Part shown: positions 576-16,286 of the stretch, piece after piece
Numbering within the stretch: the stretch's first letter is position 1
How the letters are laid out: every line of letters starts with the position of its first letter
Assembly (NCBI GenBank): GCA_944321725.1
Contig: CALUMI010000001.1
Span: 62,001 to 126,000 of the forward strand
DNA from: an uncultured Muribaculaceae bacterium
GTDB lineage: Bacteria; Bacteroidota; Bacteroidia; Bacteroidales; Muribaculaceae
DNA: 64,000 nt
Direction of reading: 5' to 3'
The notes under the pieces: model-generated
Database searches by the model: none
What the model saw: only the letters and a program-made list of their open reading frames with translations
Told to the model about the DNA's origin: nothing
Program-made: the position numbers and the translations under genes

Positions 576-1679
576 ATGGCGCTTCAATGTGGTATAGTGG
601 GGCTGCCCAATGTAGGCAAATCCACTCTTTTCAACTGTCTTTCAAATGCTAAGGCACAGTCGGCAAATTTCCCTTTCTGTACGATAGAACCCAATGTCGG
701 TGTAATCACCGTTCCCGATGAGCGGCTTAACCGGCTTGCCGAAATAGTTAATCCGCAGCGCATTGTGCCGGCTACGGTTGAGATTGTCGACATAGCCGGA
801 CTTGTGAAAGGCGCGTCGAAAGGCGAAGGGCTTGGCAACAAGTTTCTTGCCAATATCCGCGAAACTGATGCCATAATCCACGTTTTGCGCTGTTTCGACG
901 ACCCGAATGTAGTGCATGTCGACGGCTCTGTGAATCCTGTCCGCGATAAGGAAATCATCGACTACGAGTTGCAACTGAAGGACCTTGAGACTATCGACAG
1001 CCGCATAACCCGCGTGCAGAAGCAGGCTCAGACAGGTGGCGACAAAGCGGCCAAATTGCAGTATGAGGTGCTGAGCCGCTACAAAGAGGCTTTGGAGCAG
1101 GGGAAAGCTGCCCGAACCGTGAAATTCGACACTAAGGATGAGCAGAAATGCGCCCACGACTTGTTCCTGCTCACCAATAAGCCGGTGCTTTATGTTTGTA
1201 ATGTCGACGATAAGTCGGCTGTTACGGGCAACAGCTATGTGGAGCAGGTGCGCGAGGCTGTGAAGGACGAGGATGCCGAAATATTGATAGTGGCGGCGCA
1301 GACAGAGTCGGAAATAGCCGAATTCGAGACCTACGAGGAGCGACAGATGTTTCTTGAGGAGATAGGGCTGAAAGAGTCGGGTGTGTCGAGGCTGATACGC
1401 GCGGCGTTTCATTTGTTGAATCTTGAGACATATTTCACGGCCGGCCCGCTTGAGGTGCGCGCATGGACCTATTTGAAAGGCAGCAAGGCTCCGCAATGTG
1501 CGGGAGTTATACACAGTGACTTCGAAAAAGGATTTATTCGCGCGGAAGTGATAAAATACGATGATTATATCGCGCTTGGCGGCGAATCGCAATGCCGTGA
1601 GGCAGGAAAAATAGGCATAGAGGGGAAAGACTACGTGGTGCAGGACGGCGACATCATGCACTTCCGCTTCAATGTATAG
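576..1679 (+). CDS. ychF: Redox-regulated/ribosome-binding ATPase YchF
   Basis: This is a 367-residue Obg-family P-loop NTPase (YchF/OLA1), full length for the family. Members bind the ribosome, prefer ATP over GTP and act in stress responses. The P-loop GLPNVGKST is at residues 9-17. The G4 position reads NVDD near residue 209 rather than NKxD, as expected for the ATP-preferring YchF branch. The C-terminal TGS domain covers roughly residues 283-366 and includes the typical [15 protein letters not shown] stretch. A coiled-coil insertion lies near residues 130-200. The gene is monocistronic, with its own promoter 36 bp upstream, and ends in TAG, which shows TAG is an ordinary stop codon in this genome. 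Confidence 0.97.
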
Positions 1680-1686
1680 ACCGTGT

Positions 1687-1726
1687 AAGGTTATAAGGTT
1701 ATAAGGTTATGAGGTTATGAGGTTAT
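1687..1726 (+). repeat. Left octamer array, five copies, entering the four-helix-bundle gene
   Basis: Five adjoining 8-bp units are seen: AAGGTTAT three times, then GAGGTTAT twice. The array starts 7 bp after the ychF stop codon. It runs directly into the next gene: its last unit supplies the first two bases of the ATG at 1725, and the GAGG inside the units can act as a ribosome-binding sequence. The same unit appears in inverted orientation downstream at 2092-2243. Confidence 0.9.
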
Positions 1727-2098
1727 GGGTTTTTCATTTGATAAATTAGAAGCATATACGAGTTCTCGGAGGTTGGTGAAGGATGTGTATGATTTGACAG
1801 GTAAATTCCCTAATACAGAGAAATATGGTTTATCAGATCAATTACGCCGGGCTGTTATTTCTATACCTTCGAATATAGCTGAAGGTAGCGGACGTAGTTC
1901 AATCAAAGAGAAAATACATTTCATAGAAATAGCGTATGGCTCATTGATGGAAGTATATTGTCAGTTACAGCTCTGTCACTCGATTTGTCGTATGTTAGTA
2001 TTGACGATTTTGAAGTCGTAGCTGATAAAATTGATGTGGTGTCAAAATTGTTAAAAGGATTAAGGTATAGCTTTAAGAAACAATTGGCTATCCCATAA
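1725..2098 (+). pseudogene. Four-helix-bundle protein (S23/IVS family), frameshifted
   Basis: The first about 82 residues match the small four-helix-bundle family first described from 23S rRNA intervening sequences: 'FDKLEAYTSSRRLVKDVYDL', 'LSDQLRRAVISIPSNIAEG', 'GRSS', 'FIEIAYGSLMEV'. The open frame then drifts and stops at 2021. Reading shifts by one base near 1970-1976 and continues as 'LDLSYVSIDDFEVVADKID...LKGLRYSFKKQLAIP' to a stop at 2096-2098. The whole would be about 124 residues, normal for the family. One base appears to be missing. The start codon lies in the left octamer array and the stop codon in the right one. No 23S rRNA and no reverse transcriptase lie nearby, so neither the rRNA nor the diversity-generating role of relatives applies here. 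Confidence 0.8.
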
Positions 2099-2243
2099 TC
2101 CCATAACCTCATAACCCCATAACCTCATAACCTCATAACCTCATAACCTCATAACCTCATAACCTCATAACCTTATAACCCCATAACCTCATAACCTCAT
2201 AACCTCATAACCTTATAACCCCATAACCCCATAACCCCATAAC
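2092..2243 (-). repeat. Right octamer array, about 19 copies, inverted relative to the left array
   Basis: About nineteen contiguous 8-bp units of the form CTCATAAC, CCCATAAC or CTTATAAC are present. Read on the minus strand these are GTTATGAG, GTTATGGG and GTTATAAG, the same sequence as the left array. The two arrays face each other around the gene, like very repetitive terminal inverted repeats. The first unit contains the gene's stop codon (CCA TAA). Confidence 0.92.
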
Positions 2244-2460
2244 CCGGTACTTGTTACTGAAATTTAATATTAAGGGGAAGGGGCGGATATGATGTCATTT
2301 TGTCTGCGTAAAGCCGTAGGAAACGCCTGATTGAAAGCGGTTGGACGGGTAGAATTTCGGATGTTTACAGCGCGGTCTGTGGCTCAAAAAATAAAGGAGG
2401 AAATGTTTGTTTATCAGCGATTATCTGCCTAAATTTGCGGTAAACCAAAATTTTATGTTT

Positions 2461-16165: not shown

Positions 16166-16181
16166 TGCCACTGTTGTGGCA

Positions 16182-16286
16182 GGTCATGAGGTTATATGGT
16201 TATGGGGTTATGAGGGGGTATATGGTTATGGGGTCATGAGGTAATATGGTTATGGGGTTATGAGGGGGTATATGGTTATGAGGTTA
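16182..16286 (+). repeat. Degenerate octamer array without an adjoining gene
   Basis: GGTTAT-type units like those around the four-helix-bundle gene recur here, but with a higher-order pattern. A 26-bp block reading ATGGTTATGGGGTTATGA plus GGGGGTAT occurs twice, and a 24-bp variant lies between the copies. All units are in one orientation and no inward-facing partner or four-helix-bundle gene is present. Confidence 0.8.

Follow-up and report, generated by a model that had tools for sequence, protein, structure and literature searches.

Genes of the S23 family, which is known mainly from inserts in rRNA genes, likely form, together with the short tandem-repeat arrays that flank them, an unrecognized family of selfish elements. 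In our preferred reading, to which we assign a probability of roughly 0.6, an S23 gene and its two matched arrays make up one element that likely spreads selfishly, with the S23 protein predicted to recognize its own repeat at both ends. We describe this arrangement for a gene in a stretch of 64,000 nucleotides from an uncultured Muribaculaceae bacterium (the window; Table 1), in relatives from the same bacterial family and across bacteria.

In the window, Tandem Repeats Finder reports two arrays, one of 5.6 copies of AGGTTATG (1688-1731) and one of 18.9 copies of CATAACCT (2094-2244), which are mutual reverse complements and face inward. As the first-pass annotation had described, the arrays include the start and stop codons of the gene between them: the left array reaches the ATG at 1725, and the right array begins at the last codons, where the shifted frame ends in a TAA (2096-2098). 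The PF05635 match of the first frame (1725-2021) covers positions 2-81 of 106, with an E value of 1.1e-29 and 103.2 bits, relative to a curated cut-off of 33.8, and the gene is also matched by TIGR02436, 'four helix bundle protein'. By eye, the second frame (1958-2098) holds the C-terminal part of S23, and the gene is therefore frameshifted in this assembly, again as previously noted, with an error in the draft assembly as a possible alternative source of the shift.

PF05635 is the sole Pfam family found for the window protein at E <= 0.01, with no match to the Y1 (HuH) tyrosine transposases, and the unit contains no recognized nuclease, transposase or reverse transcriptase. The protein had no match in phage records. 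The gene that we take to be ychF, a name that derives from sequence recognition and the first-pass annotation rather than from a family search, precedes the S23 gene, and a codirectional ORF follows it. The S23 gene thus lies outside any rRNA gene, and RVT_1 (reverse transcriptase) has 0 matches in the window genome, in agreement with the earlier statement that neither of the partners with which such proteins occur is present. The sole sequence match to a solved structure at E <= 0.01 is 2gsc_A (XCC0516; E 1.7e-18), which is described as a pentamer of four-helix bundles (PMC4990558).

Table 1. Features of the window discussed in the text
Feature	Position	Strand	Remarks
ychF, codirectional upstream gene	576..1679	+	stop codon adjoins left arm
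Left arm, 5-6 tandem units GGTTATNN	1686..1731	+	6 nt past ychF stop, into S23 start codon
S23 / four-helix-bundle gene (PF05635, TIGR02436), frameshifted	1725..2098	+	frames 1725-2021 and 1958-2098
Right arm, ~19 tandem units, reverse complement of left arm	2094..2244	-	
Gene-less array, same repeat family as window element	16181..16286	+	

The array coordinates and a predicted RNA fold together place the ORF within a terminal inverted-repeat stem: in the fold of 1676-2250 the arms pair, with a minimum free energy of -164.7 kcal/mol and a z score of -6.68. The arrays are not a product of chance, as three successive units (GGTTATNN x3) yield 33 matches in the window genome and the same query read backward yields 0. 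Nineteen of these matches fall within the S23 element and 14 at seven other places, and by eye the arrays on contigs C13, C24 and C34 are gene-less inward pairs of GGTTATNN. The gene-less GGTTAT array elsewhere in the window follows a long gene and is itself followed by a GCCGCGCAGCGGC palindrome; GC-rich stretches resembling GCCGCGCAGCGGC also lie near other solo arrays (L035, L036 and L038). The window genome has a second S23 gene (C11:31096), between two genes that we named by eye as sugar-nucleotide genes, and its flanks are weakly arm-like, with a score of 24 that lies under the threshold of 28 defined below.

Inverted arms around S23 genes

We surveyed PF05635 in 198 genomes of the same family, of which 133 contain a match at E <= 0.001 and 88 a match above the cut-off. 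The family set comprised 110 S23 records, including that of the window, taken from the better-scoring among the matches listed; omitting three near a contig end and two duplicates (L042, identical to L090, and L051, identical to L094) left 105 loci, in which the near-identical L045-L047, all under threshold, were retained. Arms were scored by local alignment of the 250 bp upstream with the reverse complement of the 350 bp downstream, and the threshold of 28 is the 95th percentile of 2,954 mismatched flank pairs from different genomes. Arrays of different loci have words in common, which made coverage by exact 8-mers a poor measure of arms, and it was set aside in favor of the alignment.

The median inverted-arm score of the 105 S23 loci is 46. 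It is 18 in each of three comparisons, with the flanks in direct orientation, with mismatched flanks of other genomes and with mismatched flanks of the same genome, and 17 for 320 control genes (other genes of the same regions). The threshold is exceeded at 88 of the 105 loci, the remaining 17 being without clear arms, and by only 6/320 control genes, 4 of which also pass at the 99% line. In direct orientation it is exceeded at 9/105 S23 loci, and by 7/156 mismatched flank pairs from the same genome. An added family set of 21 places, three of them cut by a contig end, contributes another 15 of 18 usable loci, for a total of 103/123. The arrangement noticed in the first pass is real and is one case of a larger pattern.

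Two of the six passing control genes are Y1_Tnp and DUF559 genes by Pfam, and a third looks RAYT-like by eye with no Pfam hit; the arm test thus also detects other genes that lie within inverted repeats. The Y1_Tnp gene (L091 1892-2338, minus strand) and the RAYT-looking gene (L086 3994-4518, plus strand) each lie between inverted repeats. The DUF559 gene (L096 7512-7883, minus strand), which has other genes on either side, lies within long inverted repeats of the GGAGAGGGG type and may be another single-gene element in the style of the S23 elements.

The low rate among controls bears on the idea that arms are a mutational by-product, in which slippage generates tandem repeats, template switching keeps the two arms inverted, and any small dispensable intergenic gene of an operon would acquire them. 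Consistent with this idea, 7-bp repeats have been proposed to favor polymerase slippage (PMC4679880), and the S23 arms are noisy and variable in length. We nevertheless judge it highly improbable, given how few controls pass, the identity of two of those that do, and the fact that related S23 genes at different sites share array sequence.

Arms also accompany S23 genes outside the family. PF05635 is present in 232/296 sampled Bacteroidota genomes, and at 30 loci, from the best-scoring 30 of those 232 genomes, the median score is 25 as compared with 18 for mismatched flanks (p 7e-13), and 15/30 loci rank within the top 5% relative to their own mismatches. Just 11/30 of these best-scoring loci pass the family threshold of 28, indicating that arms there are shorter or more degenerate. 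We also scanned one genome per species of bacteria and archaea and took the best 80 of at least 590 matched stretches, five of which were too near an end. Among the 75 usable loci from this best-scoring set, 59 exceed the 95% null of their own group: 32/44 in Bacteroidota, where the other 12 fail, 7/8 in Firmicutes and 20/23 in others, which include Syntrophus, Planctomycetales, SAR324, Patescibacteria, Kiritimatiellaeota, Nitrospirae and more. In direct orientation the corresponding counts for the same best 80 are 11/44, 0/8 and 1/23. In 20 low-scoring loci of these 80, Rfam found rRNA in 0/20, and only FMN and SAM riboswitches. Homologues elsewhere thus carry arrays, a point on which the first-pass annotation had made its reading depend.

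Repeat units, protein lineage and dispersed arrays

The repeats around S23 genes have a dominant period of seven. In the family, matching at a lag of 7 reaches 0.42 on the upstream side of S23 and 0.41 on the downstream side, compared with 0.26 farther upstream, and 0.36 and 0.34 compared with 0.24 in the phylum. In a count of 105 arms, in which two loci are counted twice since duplicates were kept, 77 have a period of 7, 14 or 21, eight a period of 8 or 16, and 14 no clear period. The octamer on which the first-pass annotation focused is thus correct for the window and a minority form in general, as in most relatives within the family the unit is 7 bp long and differs in sequence. Examples of units are TAGTTTT, GGTTAAT, CAGTTGT, TTTAGGC, CTAGTCA and AATGCAT, and G exceeds C in the upstream arm in 84 of the same 105. 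The unit sequence varies by locus, even inside one genome, but the two sides of an S23 gene usually match. This difference from locus to locus was not foreseen in the first pass. Taken alone, the arrays of the window genome could be seen as a repeat family of the host beside which S23 happens to lie, an idea that we dropped as relatives carry other arrays that are also matched.

In the best-sampled family, the array sequence tracks the S23 lineage rather than the host genome. Among 88 family loci with clear arms, the mean for shared array words between S23 genes at different sites is 0.034 at 20-30% protein identity, 0.102 at 50-60% and 0.267 above 60%. None of 500 permutations reaches the observed correlation between protein and array (Mantel test), which also holds within each of two protein classes, and arrays of these 88 loci are no more similar within a genome (0.050) than between different genomes (0.051). 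The window element shares its arrays with that of L106, although the two lie in different genera and at different sites and their S23 proteins are ~56% identical (window gene read through the frameshift). A correlation of this kind could also arise if the unit were inherited by common descent and no binding took place. In eight S23 pairs, pN is 0.06-0.23 and pS 0.42-0.88, with dS saturated in two, indicating purifying selection on the S23 protein, although individual copies, such as those of the window and G145, are broken.

Arrays also occur away from S23 genes, and they are most abundant where a cognate S23 gene is present. Matches to GGTTATNN x3 are found in 13/198 family genomes, with 33 in G000, 31 in G116, 20 in G190 and 1-3 in each of the other ten, whereas the backward-read control gives 0 in every one of the 198. 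Among the S23 genes that we retrieved, those with the GGTTATNN array on both sides come from G000, G116 and G098, the last with two matches. At least one match is thus present in 3/3 cognate-S23 genomes compared with 7/68 that have other retrieved S23 genes, and at least five in 2/3 compared with 1/68. Against this, G190 has 20 GGTTAT matches, yet its sole S23 gene among the matches listed has another unit.

A second unit, AATKCAY, allows the comparison to be made in larger numbers. Three successive units (AATKCAY x3) match in 46/198 genomes, with a non-zero backward-read control in 5/198. At least five matches are present in 14/14 cognate-S23 genomes, in 8/57 genomes with other retrieved S23 genes only, and in 11/127 with no usable retrieved S23; the corresponding counts for at least ten matches are 13/14, 6/57 and 7/127. 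Between cognate and other-S23 genomes, Fisher tests give 1.3e-9 (at least five) and 5.9e-9 (at least ten). When the flanks of the S23 genes themselves are excluded, 12/14 cognate genomes keep at least ten matches and all keep at least two. The array is also present in 19/127 genomes without a usable retrieved S23, and G029, in which PF05635 has no match, contains 65 array matches. The suggestion that arrays might occur at random beside unrelated genes is thus not borne out for AATKCAY, though some array-bearing genomes are without a detected S23 gene.

We read 20 gene-less AATKCAY places, hand-picked from the matches listed, and found six inward pairs, no outward pairs, and single or same-strand arms at the rest; as several places were chosen for a visible pair, these numbers do not give a frequency of pairs. 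None of the 20 contains an S23 motif. At L355-L371, several gene-less arms adjoin TTTGCAAAG..TAC-like stretches, which we take to resemble Bacteroidota promoter boxes read backwards.

These gene-less arrays would also be expected if the arrays belonged to the host and S23 were a passenger that recombines into existing inward array pairs. The gene-less inward pairs, the array-bearing genomes in which no S23 gene was detected, and a genome (G529) that has both arms and no S23 at the yidC site described below are all consistent with such a passenger, but the arrays track the S23 lineage and not the genome, and the S23 genes of one genome mostly differ in their arrays, as the few same-genome cross pairs above threshold indicate. 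We consider the passenger explanation improbable. The preferred reading, an element of gene and arrays together, agrees with the earlier alternative in which the arrays are the protein's own predicted sites and spread with it: the spread is supported by the sequence comparisons, in that arrays are most abundant with the cognate S23, and recognition by the protein stays a prediction.

Filled and empty insertion sites

Related genomes include filled and empty versions of the same site. We probed one genus with SdhB, which is present in 57/61 genomes, and read the best 30 loci, in which the gap between sdhA and sdhB contains an S23 element in six and is empty in 24. The site is filled in G121 and empty in G525 although their SdhB proteins are 100% identical, and G017 and G533, in which it is empty, keep what appears to be a right arm left by a lost element. 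Leaving G145 aside, the other five filled genomes have SdhB proteins that are 92-96% identical, but their S23 proteins fall into three groups, 85-88% identical within and 51-55% between, and each group has arrays of its own. G145 differs from these five in its array, and its S23 is broken; there (L319) the gene seems frameshifted, with PF05635 matched in two overlapping pieces and no intact ORF found. In-situ replacement of arrays under a stable orthologous S23 was considered from pairs at one site and not retained as the main account, as the identities of host genes relative to those of S23 favor repeated arrival of different lineages.

The same site is used at greater distance. Among the best 80 of at least 590 matched stretches, a distant Bacteroidales contig (L278) carries between sdhA and sdhB an S23 gene of the same clade (support 0.965). 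In Prevotella (L223), Lacinutrix (L281) and Flavobacteriales (L283), S23 genes of distant lineages precede sdhB, at loci read on the sdhB side only. Filled and empty versions compared by eye place the insertion near the sdhA stop codon with no clear target-site duplication.

A second site, at yidC, was examined at 26 of 30 loci, the four with <60% identity being left out. Six of the 26 genomes are filled, and three array families match three S23 groups, with TTTAGG and CTAGTCA lineages among those at this site. Three further genomes (G529, G497 and G539) have arm-like sequence and no S23, with both arms in G529. In filled genomes of three array families (L322-L347), S23 and the right arm are separated, in the gap downstream of yidC, by a promoter-like host stretch, and this enclosed stretch is conserved in empty genomes too, which argues against a simple compact insertion. 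It suggests that the two arms can be placed separately, or that anything between two arms travels.

At ychF, we looked for an empty site in three other genomes of the same genus, of which only G046 keeps the neighborhood, with a GAGGTT remnant and another insert. The earlier expectation of empty sites in related strains thus holds for sdhA and sdhB, next to an identical neighbor protein, and falls short at ychF, where the relative is free of S23 but carries other sequence. That insert (L070) has GCAAGCGGAGC / GCGGCTTGGGG repeats in place of the S23 element. For the C24 pair, an empty counterpart was looked for in G046, where one side alone aligned next to the array. The proposal of a small non-autonomous mobile cassette is likewise upheld in part: sequence comparison supports mobility, but 'non-autonomous' is a better description of the pairs that lack a gene than of the copy that bears it.

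The arms fit closely between codirectional genes, at a median of 2 nt from the codirectional upstream stop codon (80 loci) and 6 nt from the codirectional downstream start codon (66 loci). The upstream neighbor is codirectional at 93/105 S23 genes compared with 184/267 control genes (p 3.5e-5), and both neighbors at 75/103 compared with 138/267 (p 1.5e-4); for the downstream neighbor alone there is no difference (79/106 and 191/267).

This placement is also compatible with arms that act at the RNA level only, the elements being intergenic counterparts of rRNA intervening sequences whose stem RNase III would cut out of operon transcripts and whose repeats S23 does not recognize. In support of such a role, a stem with S23 in its loop is predicted for the window, a stem of this kind is reported for the intervening sequence of Coxiella with RNase III cleavage in vitro (PMC4990558), and S23 is sense-oriented and often lies between codirectional genes. 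An exclusive role in RNA would leave unexplained the tandem 7-bp periodicity, the lineage-specific repeats and the dispersed gene-less arrays in cognate genomes, and we regard it as unlikely.

Proposed mechanism and known systems

Returning to the reading of gene and arrays as one element, the best description in our analysis is a selfish single-gene element that would follow RAYT/REPIN-like logic with a non-nuclease protein. The four-helix S23 protein would bind its own arrays, as hairpin DNA or as RNA, and would help to place gene-bearing or gene-less copies in the gaps that separate a stop codon from the start codon of the following gene. As the unit has no recognized nuclease, host factors would be needed for strand cutting and joining. 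In the operon transcript, pairing of the arms would form a long stem whose loop contains S23, an arrangement known from rRNA intervening sequences, and host RNase III could excise this stem, such that the insertion is tolerated. With its gene broken, the window copy would be decaying while its arrays persist.

The element resembles RAYT/REPIN systems, as described in PMC3116915, in that a single protein gene lies beside its own repeat family, each family with its protein, and in that non-autonomous inverted pairs are dispersed, as seen in S23 for the AATKCAY and window families. It differs in that S23 is not a tyrosine transposase, in that the ends are short tandem arrays rather than one palindrome, and in that insertion hotspots are common to several S23 lineages. 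With rRNA intervening sequences the element shares the protein family, encoded in the loop of a terminal-inverted-repeat stem, and a scattered presence. Intervening sequences in 23S rRNA with an S23 ORF are reported from Coxiella, where the stem is 28 bp, and others (PMC4990558), and 23S_rRNA_IVP ORFs from rRNA insertions of CPR bacteria (PMC11270868). Whereas those lie within rRNA genes and have a single stem, elements of the window type lie in gaps between protein genes and have locus-specific tandem 7-8 bp arrays and dispersed gene-less copies.

A related four-helix protein, Avd, belongs to diversity-generating retroelements (PMC10053308). The NCBIfam Avd model matches the relative L058 with an E value of 2.9e-9 and 37.2 bits, relative to a cut-off of 80, but unlike those retroelements the window genome has no reverse transcriptase match. 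The TAACTGA heptamer repeats of Beggiatoaceae, cyanobacteria and some Bacteroidetes are likewise patchy intergenic heptamer arrays near start codons, of origin described as unexplained (PMC4679880). They differ in being, as far as that report describes them, nearly all direct arrays with no inverted partner, and its main text contains 0 occurrences of 'S23', '23S' or 'four helix'. Our literature search, mainly of open-access work by its best-ranked titles and abstracts, found no link of S23/PF05635 to tandem or inverted repeat arrays.

More broadly, we tentatively suggest that S23 proteins may be the trans-acting factors of a large, unrecognized, cross-phylum class of selfish elements, in which each protein lineage would read a 7-8 bp repeat of its own by a recognition code open to change, copy it as inverted arms into the stop/start gaps of operons and seed gene-less hairpins; rRNA intervening sequences, without an explanation for decades, would be the branch that entered rRNA genes. 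PF05635 was still termed functionally uncharacterized in 2024 (PMC11270868). If the protein reads the arrays, a very common gene of unknown role would gain a function, many dispersed bacterial heptamer arrays could be traced to a source, and ideas on where rRNA intervening sequences come from would become testable. The pairs of protein and array would then also be a ready set in which to see how a small four-helix bundle shifts its nucleic-acid specificity.
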